In this document: positions 9,950 to 64,000 of the stretch, one piece after another
Numbering within the stretch: position 1 is the stretch's first letter
How the letters are laid out: the number at the start of each line of letters is the position of its first letter
DNA from: Metabacillus sp. KUDC1714
GTDB lineage: Bacteria; Bacillota; Bacilli; Bacillales; Bacillaceae
DNA length: 64,000 bases
Direction: 5' to 3'
Assembly: GCF_014217835.1 (NCBI RefSeq)
Contig: NZ_CP055263.1
Coordinates: forward strand, 3,103,501 to 3,167,500
Made by a program: the position numbers and the translations under genes
The notes under the pieces: model-generated
What the model was told of the DNA's origin: nothing
The model's input: only the letters and a program-made list of their open reading frames with translations
The model's database searches: none

Positions 9950-9996
9950 GATATACTAAGTGAGTAATATAGAATCACGAAGTAATGGGGTATCTA

Positions 9997-10950: not shown

Positions 10951-11096
10951 TGGTAATCGGCTAATTCTAATCACTAGTCGAAAACGTTGATTTACCAATA
11001 CTTCATTACCTCCATTCTTTGTTCAGTTAACTTTTATTTTTTCCCCCTTTTATTTATGAGGGCAGTGAAAAACTGATGTCTATGACAGATTTTTTT

Positions 11097-11147
11097 AAAA
11101 AAAGAAGATTTCCAGTACTAGTATTGATCTGGAAATCTTCTTTTTTT
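11097..11147. terminator. Bidirectional terminator
   Basis: A 19-bp perfect stem (11097-11115 with 11129-11147), rich in A on the left and T on the right, lies between two convergent genes. It ends the alpha-galactoside operon on the plus strand and the MFS gene on the minus strand. Confidence 0.9.
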
Positions 11148-11227
11148 GTTGGCTAATGTTGTTCTGTCGTGTATTTTACCCCATCAATCAGTCAATGCAA
11201 TCTATAAAAATCTGAATTTAATAAACT

Positions 11228-14900: not shown

Positions 14901-15109
14901 CTCTACAAAAAGCTACAATATTCGTAAAAACTCTCTACCCTGCTACAAAAAATTTACATAACTTTAACAGTTTCCCTATATTCAAATAACATACACTCCT
15001 TATACTTAAATTTCGTCTAAGAGATTGAATAAAATATTAAAGGAGAAATAAAGTATTTTAAAATTAATCATTTAAAAATTTGCAGCAGAAAAGGAGAAAC
15101 ACAAAAGGT

Positions 15110-39340: not shown

Positions 39341-40882
39341 ATGAGAATATTATTTTTAGATTTAGATTCAGTAAGCCCACGCCATTTAGGATGTTACGGT
39401 TATCACCGTAATACTTCACCTAATATCGATAAAATTGCAGAAAAGGGAGTTCGTTTCAATAATTACTATACTTCAGATGCTCCATGTGCACCTTCTAGAA
39501 CGGCCTTAATGTCTGGTCAATTTGGAATTCGTAATGGTTTAGTAGGACATGGAGGTACAGCTGGAGATATGAAACTAGAAGGAGTTAATCGTAACCTTTT
39601 TGGTAGACTTTCAGTTGGTGGATCTCTCCCTTCTTTCTTACAATTAGGAGCAGGTATAAATACAACTTTAATTAGCCCATTTCCGCAACGCCATGCAACA
39701 TATAATTTTTACGCTGGTTTTAACGAAATAATTAACACTGGTAAGTTTGGAATGGAATCAGCTGAACAAGTTTCTCCTGTTGTTACAGATTGGATTGAGA
39801 GAAATGCTGCAAAAGACGATTGGTTACTTTATGTGAATTATTGGGATGCTCACACGCCTTATCGTGCGCCAGAGAGTTTCGGTAATCCTTTTGCTGAAGA
39901 GCCACTGCCGGAATGGGCTAACGAAGAAACGTTAGAAAAGCATAAAGACGCTGTAGGTCCTCATACTGTGCATGAATTAGTTATCGATCATAATGGAAAC
40001 ACGTATACGAATGTAGAAAGTGAAAAATTCCCAAGAAGTCCTGGTGAGATTAAAAACATGGACGATTTAAGATCTATGATTGATGGATATGATTGTGGTA
40101 TTCGATATCTTGATGATCATGTCGGCAAATTATTTTCATTGTTAGAAGATAAGGGAATTTTTGAGGACACGATTATTATTATCTCAGCAGACCATGGAGA
40201 GAACATGGGACAATTAGGGATTTATGGAGAACACGGAACGGCCGATGATGGCACATGTCGTATTCCAATGATCATTTCATGGCCAGGCATGCAACAAGGA
40301 ATTGTCGATGACGGCTTACATTATCACTTAGATTTACCTGTTACATTAGCAGAAATGCTTGAGCTACCTGCTTCTCCAGATTGGGATGGAAGAAGTTATG
40401 CATCTGTATTAAAAGAAGGAAAAGATTGTGGGCGTGACTATCTAGTTGTTTCTCAGTGTGCTCACGTTGCTCAACGAAGTGTACGTTTTGGCGATTGGTT
40501 ATATATGAGAACGTATCATGATGGATATCATTTATTTGATAAAGAAATGCTATATAATCTTGCAGAAGATCCTAGAGAAGAAAACAACGTTGCAGATAAG
40601 TATAAAAACCTTTGCATGGAAGCAACCTATTATTTGAATGAATGGCATGATGAAATGATGGTAAGAAGTGGTGATGATGTTGACCCTCTATGGACTGTTA
40701 TGAAAGAAGGCGGACCATATCATGCTAAGGGATTCCTTGAAAATTATGGAGAAAGACTCATTCAAACTGGAAGAGAACGACAATTTAATGCATTGAAACA
40801 AAAACATCCTAGTGAGTTTCCAGAAGAAATTGATGAAGCAAGAGTTGCGTTTACTCGTGCGATGATGAAAAATTTATTTTAA
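39341..40882 (+). CDS. Cysteine-type sulfatase 1 (cytoplasmic)
   Basis: 513 residues of the type I sulfatase/alkaline phosphatase superfamily. The formylglycine motif is CAPSR (Cys49-Arg53), preceded by the metal site LFLDLDS (Asp7, Asp9) and followed by the late ADHGENMG metal-binding segment. It hydrolyses sulfate esters after Cys49 is oxidised to formylglycine. There is no signal peptide, so it works inside the cell on imported material. It is closely related to the sulfatase at 44732, with nearly identical N-termini. AAAGGAG lies 9 bp before the ATG. The formylglycine-generating enzyme at 47952 would mature it. Confidence 0.92.
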   Translation: MRILFLDLDSVSPRHLGCYGYHRNTSPNIDKIAEKGVRFNNYYTSDAPCAPSRTALMSGQFGIRNGLVGHGGTAGDMKLEGVNRNLFGRLSVGGSLPSFLQLGAGINTTLISPFPQRHATYNFYAGFNEIINTGKFGMESAEQVSPVVTDWIERNAAKDDWLLYVNYWDAHTPYRAPESFGNPFAEEPLPEWANEETLEKHKDAVGPHTVHELVIDHNGNTYTNVESEKFPRSPGEIKNMDDLRSMIDGYDCGIRYLDDHVGKLFSLLEDKGIFEDTIIIISADHGENMGQLGIYGEHGTADDGTCRIPMIISWPGMQQGIVDDGLHYHLDLPVTLAEMLELPASPDWDGRSYASVLKEGKDCGRDYLVVSQCAHVAQRSVRFGDWLYMRTYHDGYHLFDKEMLYNLAEDPREENNVADKYKNLCMEATYYLNEWHDEMMVRSGDDVDPLWTVMKEGGPYHAKGFLENYGERLIQTGRERQFNALKQKHPSEFPEEIDEARVAFTRAMMKNLF

Positions 40883-41277: not shown

Positions 41278-41317
41278 AAATCTTGTGGAGAAAATATCAA
41301 AGGGGAGAATTACATTG

Positions 41318-44731: not shown

Positions 44732-46192
44732 ATGAGATTCCTATTTTTAGATTTAGATTCAACAACACCTAGTCATTTGGGATGTTACGGGTATCATCGT
44801 AATACATCGCCTAATATTGATAGAATTGCAAATGAAGGGATAAAGTTTACAAACTATTATACTTCCGATGCTCCATGCCTACCCTCTCGGACAGCCCTTA
44901 TGACAGGAAAGTTGGGAATTCATTCTGGGGTTGTAGGTCACGGGGGAACTGCTGCTGATGTGCGTCATGAAGGAAAAGATCGCCAATTTAAGGATTCTCT
45001 TGCTACACAGAGTTTTCCTGCCTTCTTTAGATCTTTAGGGATGAAAACGTCATTAGTTAGTCCGTTTGCTGAACGTCATTCTGCTTGGACATTTTATGCA
45101 GGGTTCAATGAAATGTTTAACACGGGAAAAAGTGGGATGGAATCCGGTGAAGAAGTTACTCCAGTCGTATTAAATTGGATTGAACAGAACGGTAAAGATG
45201 ACAATTGGATGCTCTATGTAAACTACTGGGACCCACATACACCTTATAGAGCACCCGACATCTTTGGTAATCCATTCGAGAATGAGCCTCTTCCGTCGTG
45301 GCTAACCGAAGATGTACTTGAAACACACAAGCAAAAAGTTGGTCCACATAGTGTGAATGAAATAAACATGTTTAATAACCAAACAAGTCCTGATTATCCA
45401 CGATATCCAGGCGATATTAAAGATATGGATGAGTTACGCAATATGGTTGATGGTTATGATTGTGGTGTTCGACATATGGATAATCAAATAGGTATGATCT
45501 TTGATCTGTTGGAGAAACAAGGTGTTATGGATGAAGTCATAATCATTATTTCTGCGGACCATGGTGAAAACATGGGCGAACTTGGGATATATGGAGAACA
45601 TGGAACTGCAGATCATGGAACTTGTAATATTCCGATGATTATTCGCTGGCCTGGGTGTCAAAAAGGACATGTAGATAATGAGCTCCATTATCATCTCGAT
45701 ATCTTACCTACTATTGCGGAAATGGTTGGGAAAAATCCTGCACCAAACTGGGATGGACAGAGCTTTGCAAAAACAATTCAACGAGGGGAGAAGGCAGGTC
45801 GAGAATTTTTGGTCGTCTCTCAATGTGCACATGTGTGTCAGCGTAGTGTAAGATTTGACGATTGGCTATATATCCGAACGTACCATGACGGATATCATCT
45901 GTTTGACAAAGAGATGTTATTTAATCTAATAGAAGACCCTCATGAGCAACATAATATTGCTAATGATAGACCTGATATATGCAAAGATGCGGTTTATTAT
46001 TTAAATGAATGGCATGATGAGATGATGGCAACAAGCCCTTCTGATATAGACCCAATGAGAACCGTCATGCAAGAGGGTGGGCCATATCATGCAAAAGGTG
46101 CGCTTAAAGATTATACAGAATGGCTTATTGAGACGGGAAGAAGTCACGCTGTACCAGAACTAAAGAGACGTCATCCGAGGGAGTTTGTATAA
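44732..46192 (+). CDS. Cysteine-type sulfatase 2 (cytoplasmic)
   Basis: 486 residues, a paralogue of sulfatase 1 with the motif CLPSR (Cys49-Arg53), metal ligands in LFLDLDS and the ADHGENMG segment. No signal peptide. GAAGGAGAG lies 7 bp before the ATG. It is the last gene of the ABC operon, followed by a terminator. Two related sulfatases, each with its own importer, suggest different positions or sizes of the same sulfated substrate. Neither unit contains a glycosidase, so the sugar backbone must be cut by enzymes elsewhere, or the substrates are already small. Confidence 0.92.
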   Translation: MRFLFLDLDSTTPSHLGCYGYHRNTSPNIDRIANEGIKFTNYYTSDAPCLPSRTALMTGKLGIHSGVVGHGGTAADVRHEGKDRQFKDSLATQSFPAFFRSLGMKTSLVSPFAERHSAWTFYAGFNEMFNTGKSGMESGEEVTPVVLNWIEQNGKDDNWMLYVNYWDPHTPYRAPDIFGNPFENEPLPSWLTEDVLETHKQKVGPHSVNEINMFNNQTSPDYPRYPGDIKDMDELRNMVDGYDCGVRHMDNQIGMIFDLLEKQGVMDEVIIIISADHGENMGELGIYGEHGTADHGTCNIPMIIRWPGCQKGHVDNELHYHLDILPTIAEMVGKNPAPNWDGQSFAKTIQRGEKAGREFLVVSQCAHVCQRSVRFDDWLYIRTYHDGYHLFDKEMLFNLIEDPHEQHNIANDRPDICKDAVYYLNEWHDEMMATSPSDIDPMRTVMQEGGPYHAKGALKDYTEWLIETGRSHAVPELKRRHPREFV

Positions 46193-50913: not shown

Positions 50914-51264
50914 TACATAAAGCATTTATTTTAAATTAGGAGGTTTTTCTGAATCTTAGACAAATGGCAGTTGCTTTACTTTTTAATGATCAGAATTGAG
51001 TTGCCCTCTAACCACGAAAGGTTAAGAATGAAAAATGCTTTTTTATCATATCTAGGTTCCTGTCCTATTAAAAATGGGTTCAAAAAAAACGTGATTAACT
51101 ACTACGGCTTAGCTGTGGTTAACCAGAAATTATGACAAAAAGCAGGTATAATGAACTAACTTTTGAAACAATAATTAATTTTACATTTACTTATCAATAA
51201 TACTTATTTAATAAATTAGTTTTATTATAAATAAGTAGAGTTTGAATGTTAAAGAATAGCTTAC

Positions 51265-51386
51265 ATATTGCTAACTGCCAAGGGTGGAGTATATGGAGAA
51301 AACCCAGGTATAGTTACAAGTTCTCTGAAAATGCAAATTTGTTAAAATTATTTGCATGTTGAGGGCTGGCTATACTTGGGTTTTTT
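51265..51386 (+). ncRNA. Leader element A: conserved box plus terminator upstream of PhoD 1 (probable GlpP antitermination target)
   Basis: A conserved 5' box (CCAAGGGTGGAG, ending near 51289; then GGAGAAAACCC) leads into a terminator: AACCCAGGTATAG (51301-51313) pairs with CTATACTTGGGTT (51370-51382, one G-U), followed by TTTTTT. GGGT of the box can pair with ACCC of the terminator's left arm, which would give an alternative, antiterminating fold. It is identical to element B over 68 bases. The GlpP gene lies 2.3 kb downstream. Confidence 0.7.
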
Positions 51387-51459
51387 GTTGTCGAATTATA
51401 GTCTTAAAGTAGTTAGAGAAAGCTAATCAATCAATAAAAATTAAGGGAGGGAATTAGAC

Positions 51460-51528
51460 ATGGAATACAAGAAGGAACCTACTCTATGGATATGTGGCTG
51501 CTGGTCGTCCATAACTTCAGTAATTTAA
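51460..51528 (+). CDS. Possible 22-codon small ORF between leader and phoD
   Basis: GGGAGGG lies 8 bp before an ATG at 51460, and the frame encodes MEYKKEPTLWICGCWSSI plus four more residues before TAA. It could be a leader peptide, a remnant of a gene start, or chance. No homologue is recognised. Nothing else is evident between 51386 and 51809. Confidence 0.3.
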   Translation: MEYKKEPTLWICGCWSSITSVI

Positions 51529-51808
51529 AGATAAAATTATTTATTTTTTATTTCTCTATCAAACCTGCTTTTGGAAAAATTATAGCTAGTATATTGAGGT
51601 TCTAAATAAGCTGAAAATAAGAGATTCATAGGAAGAGTTGTTTGTGCCTATGTGTATAAATCTAGGATAGATATATCTTTTTCTCAGCATCTTAATAAAA
51701 GATTTTACGACTATCTACTATTTTTTTAAATAACAAAACTTCCACAATAGTGTTAAATTTTCTAAATGTTTTTTCACATGATAAATGTATTTAAGAGGAG
51801 AGAAAAAA

Positions 51809-53422
51809 ATGAAAAATTCTAATATTGATTCAGAAAAGTTTAATCGGAGAAGTTTTTTAAAGAAAACAGGAAAAGGAGTAGGAATTGCACTTGGTGTTAC
51901 GATTGCAAATACCTTACCGGTGAATTTTGCTTCTGCACAGTCTAAGAAATTATCCTATCCTTTTACACTGGGGATTGCTTCAGGAGACCCGGTGCCTGAT
52001 GGAGTTGTTTTGTGGACAAGACTTGCTCCAGATCCTTTGAATGGCGGGGGCATGGATAATCATCCTTTCCCAGTACAATGGGAGGTTTCTCTTGATTCTA
52101 GCTTTAAAAAAGTCGTAAAAAGAGGAACAGAGCTTTCCAAACCTCAACTAGGTCATTCTATTCATGTTGAGGTTGATGGCTTGCAACCTTCTACATGGTA
52201 TTATTACCAATTTAAGGCTGGTTCTGAGATCAGTCCAGTTGGGCGAACAAAAACTGCTCCAGCTTTTGGCAGTCACGTAGATAAGCTGGCTTTTGCATTT
52301 GCTTCTTGCCAAAATTGGCCAGTTGGTTATTACACAGCATATCAACATATGTCCAAGGATGATTTGGATTTGGTTATCCATTTAGGTGACTATATATATG
52401 AAGGTCGTCATAACTCAAGCGGTGTTAGGCCTATTGAGAAAGATTTTCCAGAAATCTATACGATTGATGATTATAGGAACCGCTATGCTTTATATAAATT
52501 AGACGCTGACTTGCAAGCAGCCCATGCAAATTTTCCATGGATTGTTACAAATGATGACCATGAAGTAGATAATAACTGGGCAGGAGATGTCCCGCAAGAT
52601 CCTGGTAAGCAAAACACGGAAGATTTCTTAAAACGGCGGGCAATTGCTTTTCAAGCTTATTATGAACATATGCCGTTTCGACGTACTTCGTTCCCAAATG
52701 GAAGCAGTATGCAATTATATCGGAGACTCAACTTTGGTAATTTAGTAGATTTCAACGTACTTGACACCCGTCAATACAGAGACGACCAGGCAAATGGGGA
52801 CGGATGGGACAGTCCAACACCTGAGTCTATGGATCCGTCTCGAACCCTGCTGGGAGAAAAACAAGAGCGTTGGTTATTAGATGGATTGACTACTTCTCAG
52901 GTAAAATGGAATGTTCTTGCGCAGCAAGTATTTTTTGCAAGACGTGATGGTGCGTTTGGTCCAGAGAAAGAACGCTACAGCATGGATGCTTGGGATGGGT
53001 ATCCTGGTGCACGCCAGCGGATATTGGACTTTTTAGCAGAGAATAATATAACCAATACGGTTGTCTTAACGGGAGATGTTCACACTAGCTGGGCAAATGA
53101 GGTCAAAGCGAACTTTGATGACCAAAACTCCAAAAATGTTGCGGTCGAATTTGTTGGAACTTCTATTACTTCTGGTGGTGACGGATCTGATGTAAATAGC
53201 GACACTGCGCAAATACTACAAGAAAATCCACATATTAAATTTTTTAGTAACCAACGCGGTTATGTTCGCTGTACATTAACCCAGCAAAAATGGCAAACAG
53301 ATTTTATGGTGGTTCCGTATGTAACTAGACCAGGTGCACCAATCCAAACACGCACTTCATTCATTGTAGAAGATGGAAAATCGAATTTACAGCAAGTAAC
53401 GACTGAAGCCGCTCCGGTTTAA
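51809..53422 (+). CDS. phoD: PhoD family alkaline phosphatase/phosphodiesterase 1, Tat-exported
   Basis: About 537 residues. The ATG at 51809 follows AAGAGGAG; the ATG at 51785 contains that site and is not used. The Tat motif is NRRSFLKKTGKG (Arg13-Arg14), then a hydrophobic stretch ending in NFASAQ. A PhoD N-terminal domain (PFTLGIASGDPVPDGVVLWTRLAP) precedes the catalytic domain: FAFASCQNW, HLGDYIYEG, NDDHEVDNNWAG and VLTGDVHTSWANE, which carry the metal ligands. B. subtilis PhoD is a Ca2+/Fe3+ phosphodiesterase acting on teichoic acid and other phosphodiesters. It is preceded by leader element A, followed by GlpP. Confidence 0.92.
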   Translation: MKNSNIDSEKFNRRSFLKKTGKGVGIALGVTIANTLPVNFASAQSKKLSYPFTLGIASGDPVPDGVVLWTRLAPDPLNGGGMDNHPFPVQWEVSLDSSFKKVVKRGTELSKPQLGHSIHVEVDGLQPSTWYYYQFKAGSEISPVGRTKTAPAFGSHVDKLAFAFASCQNWPVGYYTAYQHMSKDDLDLVIHLGDYIYEGRHNSSGVRPIEKDFPEIYTIDDYRNRYALYKLDADLQAAHANFPWIVTNDDHEVDNNWAGDVPQDPGKQNTEDFLKRRAIAFQAYYEHMPFRRTSFPNGSSMQLYRRLNFGNLVDFNVLDTRQYRDDQANGDGWDSPTPESMDPSRTLLGEKQERWLLDGLTTSQVKWNVLAQQVFFARRDGAFGPEKERYSMDAWDGYPGARQRILDFLAENNITNTVVLTGDVHTSWANEVKANFDDQNSKNVAVEFVGTSITSGGDGSDVNSDTAQILQENPHIKFFSNQRGYVRCTLTQQKWQTDFMVVPYVTRPGAPIQTRTSFIVEDGKSNLQQVTTEAAPV

Positions 53423-53702
53423 AAACCACTTTTTAATGTATTTATTATTTACATTTTATTGCTGTAAACGAATTAATATTTGAAAATGATAGTCAAAAAC
53501 AATCTTTTTTATTGATAGATACAAACCTATGAAAAGTATGCAATTTAAATTAGTAGAAATTAAAGTGATGGTAAAGATACTGAGTCAGTCTTTTGCTTTC
53601 TCCACCTTTTAGTTTATTAAGAAGTTTAAAAAATATTTTACAATTTAATAATAAGACTCTTAATAATTGATTGATAGAATCTAATTATTGGAGGTTGAAA
53701 GT

Positions 53703-54269
53703 ATGGATAAAAAGGAACTTGTAACAAAGAATCCCATTATTGCTGCTGTACGTGACGTATCGTTAATCGAGAGGGCTGTTCTTTCCCCTGTAGAGACAAT
53801 ATTTTTAATGACAGGTGATATTTTCTCAATTGATCACTGTATCGAAGTTTGTAGGAAAAACAATAAGTCGATTTTTTTACATGTTGACTTAATAAAAGGA
53901 ATAGCAAATGATCGGGAAGGAATTAGATATTTGTCGAGAAAAGTAAAGCCTGATGGAATTGTTTCTACAAGGAATCAATTATTACAAGCAGCGAAAAAAG
54001 AGGGGTTATTAGCTGTCCAGCACTTATTCATGATAGATACGTTAGCTTATGAAAATGGGATTCGAAATATTTTAGATATTAAGCCTGATGCAATTGAGAT
54101 CATGCCCGGATTAATGCCAAGGGTTATTCGAGAATTTACCGAAAAAATAGATTGTCCAATTATTACAGCGGGATTAATCAAAAATCCAGATGAAGTCAAA
54201 GAGGTTATTGAAGCTGGGGCTCACGGTGTAGCCATTGGTGAACCAAGATTGTGGGATGTGAGGATTTAG
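53703..54269 (+). CDS. glpP: GlpP-type glycerol-3-phosphate-responsive antiterminator
   Basis: About 188 residues; B. subtilis GlpP has 192. The ATG at 53703 follows GGAGG by 8 bp. The TIM-barrel-like sequence shows NPIIAAVRDVSLIERAV, FLHVDLIKGIANDREGI, GIVSTRNQLLQAAKKEG, DAIEIMPGLMPRVI and ITAGLIKNPDEVKEVIEAGA, all characteristic of GlpP. In B. subtilis GlpP plus glycerol-3-phosphate binds leader mRNAs of glp genes and prevents termination. Here it lies among phosphodiesterase genes that carry three copies of one leader-terminator, and no glpF/K/D genes are near. It is therefore probably a dedicated paralogue. Its own 280-bp upstream region has no copy of the leader. Confidence 0.92.
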   Translation: MDKKELVTKNPIIAAVRDVSLIERAVLSPVETIFLMTGDIFSIDHCIEVCRKNNKSIFLHVDLIKGIANDREGIRYLSRKVKPDGIVSTRNQLLQAAKKEGLLAVQHLFMIDTLAYENGIRNILDIKPDAIEIMPGLMPRVIREFTEKIDCPIITAGLIKNPDEVKEVIEAGAHGVAIGEPRLWDVRI

Positions 54270-54422
54270 ATCTACTTGAATTGTTACAAGAAGCAGGGAT
54301 AAAGAATCAATTGATGAAATAATAATTAAAAATACTTTTACTTAATCAACATACTTTATTAATGAATGAATTTTACTATTAAGATGTAAAGTTTGAATTT
54401 TTTAAAATACCTCCATAATTAA

Positions 54423-54548
54423 ATATTGCTAACTGCCAAGGGTGGAGTATATGGAGAAAACCCAGGTATAGTTACAAGTTCTCTGAAAATACGTGATTGC
54501 TTATCTAAGCATGTGTTTTTATAGATACTGGCTATACTTGGGTTTTTT
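54423..54548 (+). ncRNA. Leader element B upstream of the HupE-like gene
   Basis: Same as element A: its first 68 bases are identical to 51265-51332 and the last 22 (CTGGCTATACTTGGGTTTTT and on) also match, while the apical loop between them differs. The terminator is AACCCAGGTATAG with CTATACTTGGGTT and a T run. It ends 75 bp before the next start codon. Confidence 0.7.
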
Positions 54549-54622
54549 GCTGTTCTTTTTTCATTCTTCAGGGTGGAACGCAATAAAAAACCTATCAATG
54601 GAGATGAAAGGAATGACAAATC

Positions 54623-55711
54623 TTGAAAAAAAGTATTGCATATTCGGTATTGATTCTTGGCTGTTTCTTTATGATGTTGTGCCCTTTTAAAGCAATGGCT
54701 CATACGGATAATAGCGAAGGATATTCGAAGATTACGATGGATCGTGAAAATGAAAAATTGCATGTTGACCTTTATATCGATTATTTCGAAATGGGGCGAT
54801 TAATTGATTACGGAGTGAATCCAGGTGCTACTCCTGCCCAGCTTAGTAAGGCATTATCTGAAAAGAGTAAAGCGTTGTCAGACTACCTATCAGCACATTT
54901 TGAGATGTTTTATAACGGAGAAAAGGCAGAAGGAACGATTGTTTCTACGAATGTAGAAAAAAGGGTAGACCGAGATTACGCAAAGGTTTCATTAAATTAT
55001 CCAATGCCTTCCTCCGAAGCGTCCATTCAAATTTATTACAATATCTTCTTTGATGATAATGATCCGATGCATCGAAACATCTTAACCTATGACTTCGGGG
55101 AGAAGAATGGGCAGTTTATCTTTCAGGCTGGAGAAAGGGAGCTGCAGATAGGGGAAGAATCTCTGGTAAACCAAATCACCAGATTCATTAAACTTGGATT
55201 TCACCACATTATGATCGGTTATGATCATATCTTGTTTGTCATTGCGCTCGTTATGGGAACGCGGAAGCTTTCAGACGTTTTTGAAATCATTACCATTTTT
55301 ACAATTGCCCATAGCATTACCCTTGGTCTTACAGCTTTGAAGTTTCTTCAATTACCTGCTGAGATCATTGAGCCGCTTATAGCGTTAAGCATCGCCTATG
55401 TAGCAGTAGAAAGCATTCTTGGTTTTTCTTCAAAGTTCAGGCTGACGGTTGTTTTTATTTTTGGACTTATTCATGGGGTTGGATTTGCTGGTGCCTTGCA
55501 GCTAAATAATGAAATAACATGGCAAACATTGTTGTCGATCCTTTCCTTTAATGTTGGTGTTGAAGTAGGACAAGCTCTAATTATTACGTTTTTGTTTCCT
55601 TTACTGCTTTTAATAAGAAAATTCAAATGGTCATTTTATCTTCAGGGAGCTACGACAGCTTGGATATTGGGTATGGGCTTATTTTGGTACTTTGAGCGCT
55701 TTTTAGGCTAA
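54623..55711 (+). CDS. HupE/UreJ_2 family membrane protein
   Basis: 362 residues. The start is a TTG with AAAGGA 11 bp upstream. A signal peptide or first membrane helix (SIAYSVLILGCFFMMLCPFKAMA) is followed by about 150 extracytoplasmic residues and then a C-terminal membrane domain of about six helices with conserved His/Asp: LGFHHIMIGYDHILFV, FTIAHSITLGLT, GLIHGVGFAGAL. The HupE/UreJ superfamily is linked to nickel or other metal uptake. Next to metal-dependent phosphoesterases, a metal-supply role is possible, by inference only. It is the first gene after leader B and is followed 80 bp later by the giant phosphoesterase. Confidence 0.8.
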   Translation: MKKSIAYSVLILGCFFMMLCPFKAMAHTDNSEGYSKITMDRENEKLHVDLYIDYFEMGRLIDYGVNPGATPAQLSKALSEKSKALSDYLSAHFEMFYNGEKAEGTIVSTNVEKRVDRDYAKVSLNYPMPSSEASIQIYYNIFFDDNDPMHRNILTYDFGEKNGQFIFQAGERELQIGEESLVNQITRFIKLGFHHIMIGYDHILFVIALVMGTRKLSDVFEIITIFTIAHSITLGLTALKFLQLPAEIIEPLIALSIAYVAVESILGFSSKFRLTVVFIFGLIHGVGFAGALQLNNEITWQTLLSILSFNVGVEVGQALIITFLFPLLLLIRKFKWSFYLQGATTAWILGMGLFWYFERFLG

Positions 55712-55791
55712 TGCATTAGCCATTTAAGGAGGTGGTGCTGCTACTTTGGTTGCAAGATAAATAAACGAAATAGTTTAGAGGAGGAGAGACT

Positions 55792-58700
55792 ATGAAACTA
55801 GCAGAAGGCAAATGGAAAATCACGAAGAAAAGGCTAAAAGCAATGACAGCAGTTGTCATGTGTGGTTTGGCCATTTCCGCTATAGCCAAGCCAGTTATTG
55901 CAAACAACATGAATGTAACAATTAAGGGTGTCGTTTATGATGACAAAAATGAAAATGGCAAGCGTGACAGCAATGAAAATGGGATTCCGAATGTATCCGT
56001 ATCAGATGGGAAGAAAATTACAGTAACAGATGAAGAAGGGAATTATCAGTTAGCTACAAGTGCTGATAGACGACAAACGGATATCGTCTTTGTTACAGTT
56101 CCTAGCGGATATAATGTTAAAACGGATGAGAACAAAACGCCTCAGTTTTATAAAATGCTAGGCAGCCTTAAAGCAGGCGAAACTCGAGAGCAGGATTTTG
56201 GATTGTTACATACGCCAGAAAATAAAAATCCAAACTTTAGCTTTGCCAATGTAGCTGATGTTCACGTAGAGGCTGGAACGACTAATAACCGTGAACGGTT
56301 TACGGATCAGCTCAAGCAAATAAATGAGTCAACAGGGGATCCGGCTTTTATTGCTGTCAGTGGGGACCTCACCAACCGGGCGACAGATGCAGAATTTCAG
56401 GACTATACCGCGAGTACGGCAACTTCTACCCTTCCTGTTTATCCTGCAGTAGGAAATCATGATTTTGCTCCTGGTTCAGACTATCAAACAAGAATTGATC
56501 GTTATCGAAATTATTTAGGACCAGAATGGTACTCTTTTGATTATGGTAATAAGCATTTTGTTACGTTAGAAAACACATTGGGGTTTTCAGAAGCTGACCA
56601 ATTAGAGTGGTTAAAGCAGGATCTTGCACTAAATGCAAAAGATAAGGAAGTCGTAGTCTTTGTTCATAAACCATTAAATACACCACAAACACCATCACCA
56701 GATAATACGAAGCAATTTATTGAACTTCTTAGTGAATATAATACTCGTCTTGTGATGGTTGGACACACGCATGTAAATGATGTAGCACAAGACACGATTC
56801 CTGGTGCCGATCATGTAACGACAGTTTCCAGTTCCTACACGATTGATCAGTCGCCTAATGGATTTAGAATGGTCACATTCCAAGGTGACAAACAAGACCC
56901 AAAATTTAAGATGTATGATGTGAATAAAAGTGCTTCCATTGTACATCCAGCAAACAATAGTGAAGTTTCACAAGGTAAAATGAATATTTTGGTAAACGCT
57001 TATAATACATCAAGCAATGTAAAAAAAGTGGAATACCGTATTGATGGAGGGCCTTGGAAAAAGCTTAAGCAAAGCAGTGGCATGAGTTGGTATGGTACAT
57101 GGGATGACAGTAAAGCAAAATTAGGAAGACATCATATGGAAGTTCGGGTAACAGATGATGCAGAAAATGTGTGGGCAAAAATTTCTCAATTTACGATTGT
57201 TGATAGCGACAAAAAAATTACGCCAAAGAGCGGCAGTGACTGGACAATGTTCCATGGCGATGCACAGCATACGGGTTATGCAAAGGATACGCTTGAAGCA
57301 GGCCTTCGCCTAAGCTGGACTTACCATACTCCAGGAACAATCCTTACTTCTTCACCTGCAATTGTAGATGGTATTATCTATATTGGCACCCGTGATGAAG
57401 ATGGCAATAAACATCATGCCATTCATGCAGTGGATCAAAAAACTGGCAAGAAGCTATGGCAGGTTAAGGCAGATGCACAAGTCCAATCATCTCCTGCAGT
57501 TGCTGAGGGAATTGTATATGCTTCGACGATTCGCGGTACCCTTTATGCCATGGATGCAAAAACTGGAAAAATGATCTGGGAAAAGTCAGTAGGAAAAGAT
57601 GAAGTACAGCGTGCTTGGATGTACTATTCTCCAACGGTTGAAAACGGAGTTGTCTATCAGGCATATAGTACAGGTAGCGGCGGAGCCATGATGGCCATTG
57701 ATGCTCGCACTGGAAAGGAATTATGGAACTCACCTTTAGCGGGTGGCTGGATCGTTGAATCAACACCAGTTGTAAAAGACGGCAAGGTGTATGTTGGTGC
57801 AGACGGTGGCTGGTTAATTGCTCTTGATGCTAAAAGTGGAAAAGAAATCTGGCGACAAAAGCCTGCAGGAGGCTGGATGCATTCTATGCCTTCAATTTCA
57901 GATGGACGGGTATATATGGGTTATCAAGGCGGATTGTTAGTTGCTCTTGATGCCTCAACAGGCAAGGAGCTGTGGCGTTATAAGAGTTCAGATTCATCCT
58001 ATATTCACGGAGGAGCAACTGGATCATCTGCTGCTATAGCTGATGGAGTCGTTTATATGGGATTCCCTGATGGAAATGTAGCAGCTTTAGATGCCGCTTC
58101 TGGATTATTGAAGTGGAAGTACCGCACACAAGGTGGAATCATTTCTTCTGCAGCAGTTAGCGGTGAAGTGGTATTTATCGGATCAAATGATGGAAATCTT
58201 TATGCATTTGACCGCATGACTGGCCAGCCTTTGTGGCAGCATGAAATTGGGGCATGGGTAGCATCATCGCCTGCTATTTCAGGTAATACCTTAGTGGTTG
58301 GTGCGCTTGATGGCAACCTGTATGCATTCACTCCTGGCGGAAAAATGGTTCAACGCTGGCCGCGTATTACCGGAAAAGTAAGCGATGCTAAAACAGGAAA
58401 GCCTGTAAGTGGCGCGGCAATTTTAGCTATAAACGACAAGGGTGAAACACAAACCACAGTCGCAGATACAGAAGGTGAATATGTTCTTGGAGTACAGCCA
58501 GGGAAGTATACTCTTTCTGCAAAACGGAGAGGTTATCTCAATGGTGATCCGGTTTCTGCACAAATCGTGGCTGGTCAAGTTGAGACGGTCAATCTGCATT
58601 TAGAAGAGATTACAGAACCTGTTGCTGGAAAGTCTCAGGAAGCACCTGATTATAATTCAGGAAGTCCGCGATTGGATGCAGTGAACGGTGAAGAGTATCA

Positions 58701-60456
58701 CTATGTGATGAATGATCGAATTCAAGCAACGATCTCTTCGGAAATCGGGACAAACAACCTTGCGGGAACTTTCCAGCCGGGGTGGCTTGGGGATCTTGCT
58801 TTGTTGGACAATAATGGAATGGAAACGATTGACTGGAGTGAGATGGTCCTAACTCCGACAATGAATGATCCAAAACGGCCATGGAACCGTGAAGGTGAAT
58901 GGTTGTCTTTACCTGCTATTCAGGTTGAGGGGGATACTGTAAAAGCTTCAGGACAAGCACAAATGAATCCGGCAGTCAAAACGTCCGTTACGTATAAGGT
59001 GCTTCCGAATGCGCCGATTGCAAAGTTTACATTAGAGCTAAACAATACTGGTTCAGAGGATTTTAAGGGATATTTTCAATATTTGCTTGATCCTGACAGT
59101 CCTGATGACACAGTATTTGTTCCTGGAATAACAGCTGCAAATCCTGGTTTCATCACATCTGGCTATACAGGGAATTATCTTTATGATGGACCAAAAACAG
59201 CAATTTCAAGCCCTGCACACGGAATTGCATGGGTAAATGACCAACCTGCTGGATTAAGTGCTTTTGGCTATATTTTTGGGGCATCCTTTGATGCAAGCGT
59301 AGCAGCTGGTCAAAAAAAGTCGATTAGCTGGTACCACATCACTGATTATCCAGCTGAAGGAAGCGACCCTGCAGCTAATATTGCCAATTGGGCTGCTATG
59401 ATCGGGACATTAGACCCGGAAGCAGCTGAGCAATCAAGAATTCAGGGAAGGGTTACGGATGCCGAAACCAAGCAACCTGTTGAAGGAGTGTTAGTAGAGG
59501 CTCTCGATGAAGATAATAAAGTAATTGCCTCTTCAACAACAAATCAAGAAGGAAAATATTTATTTGCAATCCAAAAACCTGGACACTATAAAGTTCAGAC
59601 AAGTCGTTTGTCCTATGAAAGTGCTTTAATCGATACGAAAATTAGTGCGGGTGAAACCAAGTCTTTGGATCTTCCGCTAAAGCCAGTAACAGTTAATGTT
59701 AGTACTGGAAAAGTGTTGCCAGGTCCAGTTTCTGAAGGTTCAAAGCAAGATATATTGATGGAAAACAGCAAACTAGCAATGATGATTGCTTCCGTAACTA
59801 ATGACGCACAGCTTCCTGGAGTAACGAAAGGAAAGCCGATTGATATTTCAGCTAAAGGCTATCATGATCAAATGGACTGGTTTAATCTTCCTTATGTATC
59901 AAAAGAGCAGCCAACAGGACCGGATGCATGGGCACAGCTAACTGTAAAAAGCGAGGAAGTAAAAATAGAGGAATCTACTACTGAACGTGCTGTATTAAGT
60001 GTAAATGGTGGATCTATGGAGGATCCAGAATTGAGTGTAAACACTACTTATACCATTTTACCTGACCAAGAGTGGATTTCAGCGGAAACGATCGTAACGA
60101 ATACGGGCAAGGAAGCAAAATCAGTTTGGCTAGGTGATGCGCTTGATCACGACGGTTCAGGACAGAAAAGCGGTGTTGCCGGTCATGGTTCGATTACGCT
60201 ACCCTATTCTAGCCCACAGGAGTTTATCCCTACAGAACCGTGGATTGGAATGACTGGAACAGACAGGCAAACAATTGGTCTTGTTTATTCTGGAAATACC
60301 ACCGGGTTAAAAGCATATGGTAATGGAAATTGGATGATGACCCGACAATTTATTGATCTTCCAGCAGGTAAGAGTCATACGATGACTAGAAAAATTGTGG
60401 CTGCACCTGCTGGATCTGAGGATCCGTTTTCGGTACTAAGCGCCATTTTCGAGTAA
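55792..60456 (+). CDS. Giant exported calcineurin-like phosphoesterase with PQQ propeller and carboxypeptidase-regulatory domains
   Basis: 1554 residues; GAGGAGGAG lies 6 bp before the ATG. Order: signal peptide (about 1-38), an SdrD/B-like immunoglobulin domain (KGVVYDDKNENGKRDSNENG), a calcineurin-type metallophosphoesterase (about 150-330; NVADVH, SGDLTN, GNHDF, VGHTHV supply the metal ligands), a second Ig-like domain (380-475), a PQQ-type beta-propeller of repeated GxLYALDAxTGKxLW blades (about 483-857), two carboxypeptidase-regulatory Ig folds (about 858-940 and 1219-1300) and two related beta-sandwich modules. No sortase motif or SLH domain is visible. It is probably a secreted enzyme that hydrolyses phosphodiesters while bound to a wall polymer. 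No introns, frameshifts or stops are seen. Confidence 0.85.
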   Translation: MKLAEGKWKITKKRLKAMTAVVMCGLAISAIAKPVIANNMNVTIKGVVYDDKNENGKRDSNENGIPNVSVSDGKKITVTDEEGNYQLATSADRRQTDIVFVTVPSGYNVKTDENKTPQFYKMLGSLKAGETREQDFGLLHTPENKNPNFSFANVADVHVEAGTTNNRERFTDQLKQINESTGDPAFIAVSGDLTNRATDAEFQDYTASTATSTLPVYPAVGNHDFAPGSDYQTRIDRYRNYLGPEWYSFDYGNKHFVTLENTLGFSEADQLEWLKQDLALNAKDKEVVVFVHKPLNTPQTPSPDNTKQFIELLSEYNTRLVMVGHTHVNDVAQDTIPGADHVTTVSSSYTIDQSPNGFRMVTFQGDKQDPKFKMYDVNKSASIVHPANNSEVSQGKMNILVNAYNTSSNVKKVEYRIDGGPWKKLKQSSGMSWYGTWDDSKAKLGRHHMEVRVTDDAENVWAKISQFTIVDSDKKITPKSGSDWTMFHGDAQHTGYAKDTLEAGLRLSWTYHTPGTILTSSPAIVDGIIYIGTRDEDGNKHHAIHAVDQKTGKKLWQVKADAQVQSSPAVAEGIVYASTIRGTLYAMDAKTGKMIWEKSVGKDEVQRAWMYYSPTVENGVVYQAYSTGSGGAMMAIDARTGKELWNSPLAGGWIVESTPVVKDGKVYVGADGGWLIALDAKSGKEIWRQKPAGGWMHSMPSISDGRVYMGYQGGLLVALDASTGKELWRYKSSDSSYIHGGATGSSAAIADGVVYMGFPDGNVAALDAASGLLKWKYRTQGGIISSAAVSGEVVFIGSNDGNLYAFDRMTGQPLWQHEIGAWVASSPAISGNTLVVGALDGNLYAFTPGGKMVQRWPRITGKVSDAKTGKPVSGAAILAINDKGETQTTVADTEGEYVLGVQPGKYTLSAKRRGYLNGDPVSAQIVAGQVETVNLHLEEITEPVAGKSQEAPDYNSGSPRLDAVNGEEYHYVMNDRIQATISSEIGTNNLAGTFQPGWLGDLALLDNNGMETIDWSEMVLTPTMNDPKRPWNREGEWLSLPAIQVEGDTVKASGQAQMNPAVKTSVTYKVLPNAPIAKFTLELNNTGSEDFKGYFQYLLDPDSPDDTVFVPGITAANPGFITSGYTGNYLYDGPKTAISSPAHGIAWVNDQPAGLSAFGYIFGASFDASVAAGQKKSISWYHITDYPAEGSDPAANIANWAAMIGTLDPEAAEQSRIQGRVTDAETKQPVEGVLVEALDEDNKVIASSTTNQEGKYLFAIQKPGHYKVQTSRLSYESALIDTKISAGETKSLDLPLKPVTVNVSTGKVLPGPVSEGSKQDILMENSKLAMMIASVTNDAQLPGVTKGKPIDISAKGYHDQMDWFNLPYVSKEQPTGPDAWAQLTVKSEEVKIEESTTERAVLSVNGGSMEDPELSVNTTYTILPDQEWISAETIVTNTGKEAKSVWLGDALDHDGSGQKSGVAGHGSITLPYSSPQEFIPTEPWIGMTGTDRQTIGLVYSGNTTGLKAYGNGNWMMTRQFIDLPAGKSHTMTRKIVAAPAGSEDPFSVLSAIFE

Positions 60457-60472
60457 CATCAATACTAAAATC

Positions 60473-60510
60473 AATACGGGTTGAAGAGTAAATTCTTCAG
60501 CCTGTATTTT
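60473..60510 (+). terminator. Terminator after the giant phosphoesterase
   Basis: AATACGGGTTGAAGA (60473-60487) pairs with TTCTTCAGCCTGTATT (60493-60508), followed by T residues. From here to leader C no gene is visible. Confidence 0.82.
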
Positions 60511-60647
60511 GATGGTAAAAATTAAATCTTTCAGCTTTACCCAATAGTCCATTCATTATGAATTCTTAACATTGAGATAATATAAGATTTACAATATTGT
60601 GTTTAAATAATAAAAGATTAAATTTTTTTATAGGTTGCAAACTTAAT

Positions 60648-60763
60648 AGTACTTTCTACCGAGGGTGGAGAATTGGAGAAAACCCAGGTATAGTTCTTAG
60701 TCAGATCGAATAGAAGCTCAATGAATTTCTATTTATTTTGAATAACTATACTTGGGTTTTTTT
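60648..60763 (+). ncRNA. Leader element C upstream of the HAD phosphatase operon
   Basis: A diverged copy of elements A and B. It keeps CGAGGGTGGAG, TGGAGAAAACCCAGGTATAG (the left arm) and the right arm CTATACTTGGGTT with seven T, while flanks and loop differ. Conservation of exactly these parts supports a functional role. It lies 131 bp before the HAD phosphatase start. Confidence 0.7.
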
Positions 60764-60894
60764 ATTATCAAAAATGGAGGTCAACTTGCAAAAAGAAGAA
60801 CCCTTAATTAATAAGTAAAAATGTAGAGGTATTTCTATAAATAGATGAAATGCAGCAAGATAACTAAGCAAAGAAAAGGCAGTGACACATAAAA

Positions 60895-61722
60895 ATGACA
60901 TTTAATCTAGCAAATTGTTCGACATTTATTTTTGACTTAGATGGATCGGTTTATTCTGGTAACAGGTTATACGCTGGAGTACAGAAATTATTGCAATTAC
61001 TGAGTCTTAGGCAAAAAAAAATATTCTTTTTAAGCAATAACTCTACGGATACAGCGGAATCTATTCGCAAGAAACTGCAAGGGATGGGTTTATCGATTCA
61101 TCATACTTCTATTCTAGTTGCCACAGAATTGGTAGGTGACTATTTACTAGAAAAGTACGGAAAAATTCGAGTGAAAACGTTTGGGACAACTGCACTTGAA
61201 CAGTCCATTAAGTCATGCGGGCACATTATATCATCTGCAAGTAGTAAAGATCCATGTGATGTGGTCGTTGTAGGAAGGGATCCATCATTTACCTATGAAA
61301 AGCTTTATGATTGTACAAGAACTCTTACAAATGGTGCAAAACTTGTGGCGGTAAATCCGGATCTATTTCATCCAGGTGAAGACGGCAGCAGGGTTCCCGA
61401 AACTGGGGCAATTATATCAGCGATCCAAGCGGTATCAGGCTACTCAGACTACGAATCAGTAGGTAAACCTTTTGATTATTCATTTAAAAAGATTCAGGAA
61501 CAATCTTTATCTGAGCCAAAATCATGCATCATGATAGGAGACAATCCTTACACAGATATTCTTGGAGGATACATGGCTGGAATGCATACAGCATGGATTT
61601 CCCATGGAGAAATATTTCCTTCAGAGCTTGGATTCAAGCCGGATGTAACAGTTTCATCCATTGGTGAATTAGTTCCTTACATTTTATTTGGGGAGTTTCA
61701 GGAAGAGAGTTACGAGGCTTAG
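60895..61722 (+). CDS. HAD superfamily IIA phosphatase (NagD/p-nitrophenylphosphatase type)
   Basis: 275 residues. HAD motif I is FDLDGSV, motif II SNNST, motif III Lys near SVGKPFDYSF, motif IV GDNPYTDILGG; the C2A-type cap lies between. The family includes glycerol-3-phosphate phosphatases (mammalian PGP, mycobacterial Rv1692) and NagD, all with small phosphomonoester substrates. Since it follows a GlpP-type leader, glycerol-3-phosphate to glycerol is a plausible reaction. There is no signal peptide. It precedes phoD 2 by 160 bp and probably shares its transcript. Confidence 0.85.
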   Translation: MTFNLANCSTFIFDLDGSVYSGNRLYAGVQKLLQLLSLRQKKIFFLSNNSTDTAESIRKKLQGMGLSIHHTSILVATELVGDYLLEKYGKIRVKTFGTTALEQSIKSCGHIISSASSKDPCDVVVVGRDPSFTYEKLYDCTRTLTNGAKLVAVNPDLFHPGEDGSRVPETGAIISAIQAVSGYSDYESVGKPFDYSFKKIQEQSLSEPKSCIMIGDNPYTDILGGYMAGMHTAWISHGEIFPSELGFKPDVTVSSIGELVPYILFGEFQEESYEA

Positions 61723-61881
61723 AATTCATGATTTCCCTTGGCTTTTCTCTTAAGTTATGAGATTGCAATTTATACCTAAAAAGTTAGTTAGTGACTTATC
61801 AAAGAAAGCAAAAGATAGCATTACCCGTTTACTCTATTAAACAATCATTCGAATTACTTTAATATAAAAGGAGAGATTAAT

Positions 61882-64000
61882 TTGAGTTACGAAAAATGGA
61901 TAAATAATTTGAGTTCGAAAAAAATGGATCGCCGAAGCTTTCTAGGGACAACTGGGAAAACGATGGCATTTGCTACACTTGGCTTTTCACTTCCTCTTGT
62001 ACAACCTGATAAGATAAAGGCTTCACCAATTTTCACTACAAATCCTTTTACCCTTGGAGTCGCTTCTGGTGATCCTCTTTCAGATAGCGTTGTTTTATGG
62101 ACGAGGCTTGCTCCTAATCCACTTGCAGAGGATGGACGAGGCGGGATGGATAATAGCTATGTTTCCGTTGAATGGGAAGTAGCAGAAGATGAAAATTTCA
62201 GTAGAATTGTTCGAAATGGTACGGAGATTGCTGGACCTGAGCTTGGACATTCTGTGCATGCTGAAGTGTATGGCTTAAAGTCATGGAGAGAATATTACTA
62301 TCGTTTTAAAGCAGGTAATGAAATTAGCCCAATTGGCAGAACAAAAACAGCTCCTGAGGAGGGTTCGCATGTAAAAAGTCTTTCGTTCGCCATAGCTTCT
62401 TGTCAATCGTGGACAGGTGGACGTTATTCAGCTTATAAACATATGGCTGAAGACAATCTTGATGTCGTTTTTCATTTAGGTGATTATATTTACGAGAAGG
62501 GTGATACAGAAACACTTACTGATTACCGGCTTCTTCATTCCCAATATAAAACATCCCCAGATCTGCAAAAAGCTCATGCGGCCTTTCCATTTATTGTTAC
62601 GTTTGATGACCATGAGGTGGATAATGATTGGTCAAATGATATCTCTGAGCCAAATTATCCGGAAGGGGAACGTGAACGTTTCCTTGCAGTACGCGCAGCT
62701 GCTTTCCAGGCCTATTATGAGCATATGCCGTTAAGACGCCGATCTAAGCCTAACGGTCCAGATATGCTTCTCTACCGCAAGTTTACTTTTGGAGATTTGG
62801 CAGAATTTAGTGTTTTGGATACTAGACAATACCGAAACAATCAAGTTGGAGCAGGCTTCCCTGGTGGACCTATTCATCCTGATGCATCGAATCCATCAAG
62901 AACGCTGATGGGATCTGAACAGGGGAAATGGCTTATTAATAATTTGAAATATTCACGTGTACGTTGGAATGTTATTGCACAACAAACGATAATGGCGCAA
63001 TTTGACTATGATACAGGAGAAGGGCTTAGTATTAACCGTGATCAGTGGGATGGGTACTCAGCGGACAGGGATCGACTATTTGACTTCATTAAAGAAAGAC
63101 GCACATCTAATCCAATTGTTCTTAGTGGTGATTGGCATTCAAGCTGGGTCAATGATTTAAAAGAGGATTTCAACAATCCTAAATCAAAAACAATTGCAAC
63201 CGAATTTGTGGGTACGTCCATCAGTTCAGGCTGCGGGTGGAAGAATCAAGTTGAAGCAGCTCTTACTGCCAATCCACATGTCAAGTTTTTTAATGGAGAT
63301 TACCGTGGATATGTGCGCTGCCTTGTAACACCTCAAGCATGGCAAAGTGATTATTGTATTGTAACTTCTGCAGATAATCCAGATGCCTCTATAAGCACAC
63401 TTGCATCATTTGTTGTTAAAAACGGCAAGCCTGGCGCTGTTCGCATCGGGGGAGTGGATGTTTCAAATATTGTATCAAATACAATGTTTGCTGGTAAGGC
63501 AAGCCCTATTTCAGTAACACTAAGTAATGGGACGAAAAAAACAGTAAAGGTTGATGTTCGTGTTCATGTTCCAAAGGAGTGGGAAAGTGAAGCTAAAACG
63601 ATCATTCTTGAACCTTATGGATCATCAACAGCTGAAGTGATGGTAACACCACCTGCCGGAATCCCAGTAACAGAAAAACTTAGTTTAGAAGTAAACGCTG
63701 ATAAGACAGAGGTATTCGGTACATCAAGAGACTTTTATGTAGTCTCCACATTTTCTAGGGAAGAGCTTTTTCTTGCTTTAGATGCTGGAAGTGAAACGAG
63801 TGCGCTATTACCGTCATACACTCGATTATCCCATAAAGATACTTGGGATGTCTCTAAGGGGTATGGATGGGTTGGAACAGTACCATCTTCTAGAGACCGT
63901 AACAAGCTGGATGAGTTACAGCGTGATTTTATCCTTTCTAAAGGAAATCCTACGAAACTTAGACTTTCTGTTCCTGCAGGTGTTTACAAAACTTATATTC
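61882..64000 (+). CDS. PhoD family phosphodiesterase 2, Tat-exported, with C-terminal extension; runs off the window
   Basis: More than 706 residues, open to the window end. The start is a TTG with GGAGAG 7 bp upstream. The Tat motif is MDRRSFLGTTGKT, followed by a hydrophobic stretch. The PhoD regions match those of phoD 1: LGVASGDPLSDSVVLWTRLAP, FAIASCQSW, HLGDYIYEK, FDDHEVDNDWSND, VLSGDWHSSWVNDL. After about residue 520 come an NEW3-like beta domain (MFAGKASPISVTLSNGTKKT) and a carbohydrate-module-like segment (YTRLSHKDTWDVSKGYGW...LSVPAGVYKTY) like those of polysaccharide-active enzymes. It is related to but clearly diverged from phoD 1. Confidence 0.9.
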   Translation, partial: MSYEKWINNLSSKKMDRRSFLGTTGKTMAFATLGFSLPLVQPDKIKASPIFTTNPFTLGVASGDPLSDSVVLWTRLAPNPLAEDGRGGMDNSYVSVEWEVAEDENFSRIVRNGTEIAGPELGHSVHAEVYGLKSWREYYYRFKAGNEISPIGRTKTAPEEGSHVKSLSFAIASCQSWTGGRYSAYKHMAEDNLDVVFHLGDYIYEKGDTETLTDYRLLHSQYKTSPDLQKAHAAFPFIVTFDDHEVDNDWSNDISEPNYPEGERERFLAVRAAAFQAYYEHMPLRRRSKPNGPDMLLYRKFTFGDLAEFSVLDTRQYRNNQVGAGFPGGPIHPDASNPSRTLMGSEQGKWLINNLKYSRVRWNVIAQQTIMAQFDYDTGEGLSINRDQWDGYSADRDRLFDFIKERRTSNPIVLSGDWHSSWVNDLKEDFNNPKSKTIATEFVGTSISSGCGWKNQVEAALTANPHVKFFNGDYRGYVRCLVTPQAWQSDYCIVTSADNPDASISTLASFVVKNGKPGAVRIGGVDVSNIVSNTMFAGKASPISVTLSNGTKKTVKVDVRVHVPKEWESEAKTIILEPYGSSTAEVMVTPPAGIPVTEKLSLEVNADKTEVFGTSRDFYVVSTFSREELFLALDAGSETSALLPSYTRLSHKDTWDVSKGYGWVGTVPSSRDRNKLDELQRDFILSKGNPTKLRLSVPAGVYKTYI

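Follow-up and report, generated by a model that had tools for sequence, protein, structure and literature searches.

At the end of a 64,000-nucleotide stretch of the Metabacillus sp. KUDC1714 genome (hereafter the window; positions 3103501-3167500 of a single-contig, 5.76-Mb assembly), six genes probably make up a dedicated GlpP-type antitermination regulon for the breakdown of extracellular phosphodiesters. All on the + strand between 51.27 kb and the window end, they encode, in order, a PhoD enzyme (PhoD1), a GlpP paralogue, a HupE_UreJ_2 membrane protein, a phosphoesterase of 1554 amino acids (aa), a HAD-IIA protein and a second PhoD (PhoD2), and fall into three transcription units, every one of which opens with a near-identical leader and terminator. 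An initial annotation of the DNA had described this clustering of glpP with two PhoD enzymes, a giant phosphoesterase, a HupE-like protein and a HAD phosphatase behind one recurring leader-terminator, and domain searches, folding and covariation confirmed it; that the regulon is real we consider highly probable.

Antitermination of glp leaders by GlpP is established in Bacillus subtilis (excerpts of PMC9604022, PMC7430163 and PMC6225680), while comparative genomics of the GlpP regulon, which PMC3750489 (excerpt) says was left undone in that work, seems to have received little attention. Literature searches on GlpP with PhoD (soil surveys, judging by their listing), on the protein name, on GlpP antiterminators and regulons and on ugp with antiterminators brought up no report of a regulon of the present kind, as judged from listings and excerpts, the original papers of 1991-2002, which may hold an earlier antiterminator model, lying outside that search. 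Like the B. subtilis system of GlpP with glpFK, glpD and glpT-glpQ, the one described here pairs a PF04309 regulator with a twin-GAG leader (as in the canonical leaders fetched in this study), a terminator that would be conditional and glycerol-phosphate genes. Unlike it, the putative targets are secreted PhoD enzymes, the giant phosphoesterase, HAD-IIA and the HupE-like protein, the leaders lack a CAAGTTAATA box, and the GlpP, 31-34% identical to three canonical GlpPs, has changed ligand-face residues. The data point to a GlpP lineage of its own that would control the scavenging of phosphodiesters, secreted PhoD-type hydrolases included, and allow us to offer a concrete, testable antiterminator model in which twin GAG repeats occupy the loop of a hairpin overlapping the terminator. 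If true, this would widen what is known of inducible scavenging of phosphorus and carbon among Bacillota and supply RNA-protein pairs for studying specificity.

Leader RNAs

The three leaders (Table 1) have a common core, GGGTGGAG-N3/4-TGGAGAAAACCCAGGTATAGTT, and a 3' arm of the form (GG or AA)CTATACTTGGGTTTTTT. In leader 1, a stem of GGGU (51282-51285) and ACCC (51302-51305) encloses GGAG-N5-GGAG, and the terminator then runs to 51386. Each leader folds better than all of its 200 dinucleotide shuffles (z -5.3, -6.1 and -5.8 for leaders 1 to 3), and among 13 related leaders both sides have changed in 10 of 18 terminator pairs, a degree of covariation matched by none of 500 shuffles and far above that of slid controls. 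Folding and covariation thus support a terminator structure in the 5' leader, the transcript start and the conditionality of termination being predicted. Two GAG repeats lie 8-10 apart right before the terminator, a criterion that we noted in canonical leaders rather than took from a published definition. No Rfam family reached its gathering score, either in the window or at the six fetched loci that were searched. An AT-rich 134-base repeat (window 51128-51261 and 54279-54412, 74% identical) precedes leaders 1 and 2, so the promoter region seems to have been duplicated together with the leader.

A covariance model built from 13 window-type leaders only (R2; the leader scores in Table 1 are from this model, of which all three are training members) matched 8 of 397 genomes of the order. 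The Metabacillus genome itself gave its three training leaders (85.6-95 bits) and the reverse strand of one terminator. The other seven gave one match each at 31-41 bits, upstream of glpD (three, the GlpD proteins being 62-70% identical to the Metabacillus one), HAD-IIA (two), a HAD-GlpP operon (one) and ugp-like permeases (one), and a GlpP gene lies within 7 kb of each of the four matches that do not precede glpD. Under Infernal's stricter filters and with rough E-values, about four chance matches are expected at E 0.01, so these seven weak matches are credible because of their genomic position. They also bear on whether the leaders are widespread in genomes lacking glpP, which would have spoken against the initial annotation: no such spread was seen, the seven standing at glpD, HAD-IIA or ugp-like genes.

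At held-out loci with a ugp-type GlpP, R2 found a leader in 13 of 13 at E up to 0.2; ugp genes are still present at 12 of these and lost at L062, and glpP is broken at L060 and L062. Together with the matches at glpD, HAD-IIA and ugp-like genes, this identifies the window leaders, as judged from sequence comparison, as GlpP-type leaders. At L050, L052 and L064, R2 also detects leaders of glpF or glpD. Additional matches with a terminator stand ahead of genes for ABC, transporter-like, HAD and exported proteins at L073, L091, L092 and L094, GAG repeats being visible by eye in all of these extra matches except L073:13863. L092 and L094, from two other genomes, each carry a gene for an exported-looking protein (9992-11941 and 10192-12105; about 640 aa) that follows a twin-GAG leader and adjoins a GlpP gene. 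Nothing was found by R2 at E up to 1 in all nine other loci fetched from the Metabacillus genome, or by regular expression and R2 at the loci of its four GDPD genes.

Pattern searches were less informative. A loose regular expression for twin GAG repeats plus terminator was rejected as unspecific, with 97 distinct forward rows against 93 reversed in 731,115 bases of fetched sequence (duplicates were removed from the forward rows and not from the reversed count), and we therefore relied on covariance models. A strict 5' pattern occurred in one of 299 genomes of the order, that of Metabacillus itself, and in two of 299 in the reversed control, so a lone match elsewhere would mean little; since this search says little about diverged leaders, the 397-genome R2 search is the better test. 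Within the Metabacillus genome the strict pattern occurs three times at the locus and once at 651.3 kb (G000:C1:651277-651298, - strand; L017, about 7299). This fourth copy, upstream of what by eye is a dienelactone-hydrolase-like gene, has no clean terminator and holds an apparent transfer RNA gene fragment (by eye) within the would-be hairpin, as if a leader had been interrupted.

Related regulators in other genomes

The leaders go with this particular glpP clade: a leader is present at 8 of 8 loci with a window-clade GlpP, as far away as Sporomusa, and at four of the eight (L051, L074, L075 and L076) glpP stands directly behind it. Among 80 genomes of the family, full-length window-clade GlpP occurs only in Metabacillus sp. 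KUDC1714 and in one relative, G336, with two stretches 82% and 59% identical; in the second of these, which reads as a 186-aa open frame, the search flagged a TGA. At one locus of G336 the order is glpP, leader, PhoD2, and at the other it is leader, glpP, HAD, HupE and a shorter phosphoesterase. Another genome, G339, has a broken window-clade GlpP fragment (72% over 54 residues) beside a relic leader, which an orphan leader in G336 (L049 16288-16393), followed by a gene on the opposite strand, resembles.

Two clade peptide patterns, searched in 84,980 species genomes, led to at least five named loci, in Bacillus sp. NTK034, Sporosarcina globispora, Chryseomicrobium aureum, a Bacillota metagenome-assembled genome and Sporomusa silvacetica. 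At the latter three loci glpP, a HAD-IIA gene and a gene for a type I phosphodiesterase (PF01663) follow directly on the leader; ABC importer genes come next in Chryseomicrobium and Sporomusa, and the metagenomic contig stops there. The phosphodiester theme extends beyond the window locus: at other fetched Bacillota loci, GlpP paralogues accompany genes for HAD-IIA, diesterases and ugp.

The GlpP paralogue that heads ugpCAEB-GDPD operons in relatives belongs to a sister lineage and has the same leader type and phosphodiester theme; those operons serve uptake and encode GDPD, as against the secreted PhoD enzymes here, and we noticed no report of them in the literature listed on GlpP and ugp antitermination. 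A protein search with the window GlpP returned 59 clusters at E up to 1e-40, 32 of them at 55% identity or more. In the 397 genomes, a GlpP search at E up to 1e-50 found the Metabacillus genome and three others (45-46%), none of the three being among the R2-matched genomes. A plasmid collection held no close relative (39 records, all below 60% identity). One sequence record (P0010) assigns a window-clade GlpP, 84% identical, to a plasmid in Bacillus sp. F19, a hint that the regulon may be mobile.

Proposed antitermination mechanism

By default, each leader RNA would fold into a strong terminator. We propose that the local GlpP paralogue, once its ligand is bound, takes hold of both GAG repeats, which lie in the loop of a weak hairpin (GGGU/ACCC) ahead of the terminator, probably by binding the leader directly; the 3' arm of this hairpin is part of the terminator 5' arm, so that holding the hairpin would block termination and let the phosphodiesterase genes be transcribed. 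The ligand would be a glycerol-phosphate-type phosphomonoester, with glycerol-3-phosphate as the default guess. There is no leader directly upstream of glpP itself, which therefore either shares leader 1 via PhoD1 or has its own promoter.

In the proposed antiterminator, bases just 5' of the first GAG pair with the first bases of the terminator 5' arm. Across 34 distinct leaders of four classes (the extraction rule passed over three of 40, and identical ones were counted once), the arms fit their own partner better than permuted ones in all of 5000 permutations that kept relatedness, with pairs such as GGGT/ACCC, GTG/CAC, CGGT/ACCG and TATGGC/GCCATA among others. The 13 canonical leaders alone gave the same result (0 of 5000), and leaders 1 and 3, when cut down to their 5' parts, fold weakly into the antiterminator hairpin.

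TRAP is an antiterminator-type RNA-binding protein that reads short repeated triplets ending in AG. HutP likewise has a leader with repeated short triplets ending in AG (excerpt of PMC7430163). Both differ from the present system in protein family and ligand, and here two GAG repeats would lie in a single hairpin loop.

Several results weigh against a GlpP-type antiterminator in the window leaders. The window-type leaders are too alike to lend the stem independent support on their own (2705 of 5000 permutations; with cells paired, 113 of 500 shuffles), and the truncated leader hairpin is no more stable than shuffles. The CAAGTTAATA-type 5' box, common in the canonical and ugp leaders fetched here and not known to us as a published defining trait, is absent from the window leaders and partial in Sporomusa (L076). 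R2 fails on the genome's own canonical glpF and glpD leaders (L006), on the L007 hydrolase leader and on the L064 glpD leader; it finds nothing at L095 and L097 and reaches E 0.22 at L096, three loci with a GlpP 45-46% identical to that of the window; and above E 0.15 its matches include non-leaders by eye (for example L073:1972-2041 and L074:13002-13110). The reverse model, R1, built from canonical and ugp leaders, misses the window leaders at significance (leader 3 came second at E 0.59; leaders 1 and 2 were unlisted), so homology with glp and ugp leaders was recovered from R2 outward and not in reverse.

The regulator, its ligand and alternative readings

The window GlpP matches PF04309 well above threshold (204.9 bits against a cut-off of 27), has PDB relatives 3kts and 1vkf, and is predicted to form a barrel-type structure of eight strands alternating with helices (mean predicted local distance difference test score 89.2). 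In a 32-row tree, a 100/100 branch parts four canonical GlpPs from the other 28, of which 20 have context, with PhoD, HAD-IIA, ugp or diesterase neighbours, and eight are database entries without context. A comparison of 33 window-clade rows (32 distinct entries) with 16 canonical ones found H60, D62, D70, T89, D112 and E132 to be common to both, and positions 14, 36, 39, 68, 107, 134, 177 and 179 to be conserved but different in the window clade. The ligand face of such barrels is formed by the strands and the loops following them. In the predicted barrel all eight differing positions lie there, so the ligand of this GlpP may have changed. Wall and lipoteichoic acids are built from glycerol phosphate of opposite handedness, and the teichoicase PhoD cuts in endo fashion (excerpt of PMC7086022), which makes sn-glycerol-1-phosphate a candidate besides sn-glycerol-3-phosphate.

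It is plausible, if somewhat short of probable, that an old GlpP sister subfamily senses a different phosphomonoester (for example sn-glycerol-1-phosphate, the lipoteichoic acid unit, or another diester cleavage product) and runs its own scavenging regulons through the twin-GAG antiterminator, these comprising HAD-IIA, a type I phosphodiesterase or GDPD, and a ugp importer, or else secreted enzymes of the PhoD and calcineurin types.

The initial annotation had instead proposed positive feedback, in which the secreted enzymes would release glycerol-3-phosphate from poly(glycerol phosphate), and this would enter the cell, bind this GlpP and induce more of the same enzymes. Of that proposal, the GlpP-type leaders and their tie to the glpP clade stood, glpP itself being without a leader of its own; the loop as a whole we regard as possible but doubtful. 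It fits the six residues kept in common with canonical GlpP, the cutting of wall teichoic acid by B. subtilis PhoD (excerpt of PMC7086022) and the presence of a ugp-type importer in the genome. Yet the eight ligand-face positions differ, the substrates of the enzymes are putative, and another glycerol-3-phosphate sensor would duplicate the genome's two other GlpPs.

Transport also bears on this circuit. No GlpT exceeds the family cut-off in the genome (one match, 33 bits against 632.55), so glycerol-3-phosphate would probably have to be taken up by the ugp-type importer. The genes for this importer form a ugpCAEB-like operon at 2.457 Mb, its UgpA being 86% identical to that of a genus relative. 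No glpP was found in the 14 kb around this operon, while relatives have glpP at the operon head. A ugp-type leader is kept ahead of it (about 2455517-2455604, L106; 25.3 bits), with a stem and 5' box unlike those of relatives.

The two other GlpPs might themselves read the window leaders, leaving the local GlpP to serve something else. One, at 2.19 Mb, stands behind glpF-glpK-glpD in a normal glpF-K-D-P cluster at about 2.18 Mb (the classical glpF/K/D/T/Q genes were rightly said to be absent from the window locus, by gene calls and domain search, so that the canonical glp targets are found elsewhere in the genome). The other, at 1.09 Mb (L007 9245-9802), adjoins what by eye is an alpha/beta-hydrolase-like gene (7951-8883) with its own canonical-looking leader. 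The glpF, glpD and hydrolase leaders are canonical, the terminator being preceded, in this order, by a CAAGTTAATA-like box, a short stem and a pair of GAG repeats. The coexistence of three GlpP genes and the GGAG repeats common to canonical and window leaders would allow such cross-reading. We consider it unlikely, since the leader type accompanies window-clade GlpP at every one of its loci and 298 other genomes of the order lack the strict pattern, although GlpP of some kind is present in 80 of 80 genomes of the family.

Alternatively, the leaders might act as riboswitches or be read by a different protein, with glpP a bystander. This would suit GlpP-leader binding being a prediction and the distance of the 651.3-kb motif from all three glpP genes, and is very improbable given the lack of an Rfam match, the path from R2 to glpD, HAD-IIA and ugp-type leaders, and a glpP at each of the eight loci, directly behind the leader in half of them.

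Gene content and surroundings

Table 1 Features of the predicted regulon (window coordinates)
Feature	Position	Strand	Remarks
Leader 1	51273..51388	+	Model match 92.2 bits; heads PhoD1, perhaps glpP
Small open reading frame, 22 codons	51460..51528	+	Between leader 1 and PhoD1; ribosome-site-like stretch
PhoD1	51809..53422	+	PF09423, 408 bits; Tat-type motif RRSFLKK by eye; putative secreted phosphodiesterase/phosphatase
GlpP paralogue, window clade	53703..54269	+	PF04309, 204.9 bits
Leader 2	54431..54550	+	Model match 85.6 bits; heads HupE-like gene and giant phosphoesterase
HupE_UreJ_2 membrane protein	54623..55711	+	Domain match; start codon uncertain
Exported calcineurin-type phosphoesterase, 1554 aa	55792..60456	+	MetallophosN, Metallophos, Big_7, PQQ-type propeller, CarboxypepD_reg; signal peptide by eye
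Leader 3	60654..60764	+	Model match 95.0 bits; heads HAD-IIA and PhoD2
Small open reading frame, 10 codons	60786-60818		Between leader 3 and HAD-IIA; ribosome-site-like stretch
HAD-IIA phosphatase	60895..61722	+	TIGR01460, 129.4 bits against a cut-off of 100.15
PhoD2	61882..64000	+	RRSFL Tat-type motif; cut by window end

Both PhoD assignments rest on PF09423 and PhoD_N together with a twin-arginine (Tat)-type motif seen by eye, as in the B. subtilis PhoD teichoicase; PhoD1 matches alkaline phosphatase D (2yeq, E 2e-196). Differences from the B. subtilis enzyme are the link to a GlpP-type leader, an extra C-terminal part in PhoD2, with a weak NPCBM-associated match, and scores below the NCBIfam PhoD equivalog cut-off of 1000 bits (805 for PhoD1 and 640 for the G336 orthologue of PhoD2). 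An in-frame ATG at 51785 is a possible alternative start of PhoD1, and PhoD2 extends about 224 bases beyond the window, to a total of 780 aa. Identification of the HAD protein as a glycerol-3-phosphate phosphatase was set aside as a family-level guess, its best PDB matches being other HAD-IIA enzymes, with those so named ranking lower. The two small open reading frames both have Lys and Glu near the start. Upstream of the regulon, two sulfatase-family genes (39341-40882 and 44732-46192) flank ABC importer genes, with a binding protein at 41285, and the window further holds a PAP2-domain protein at 15080 and a GH36 protein at 7763.

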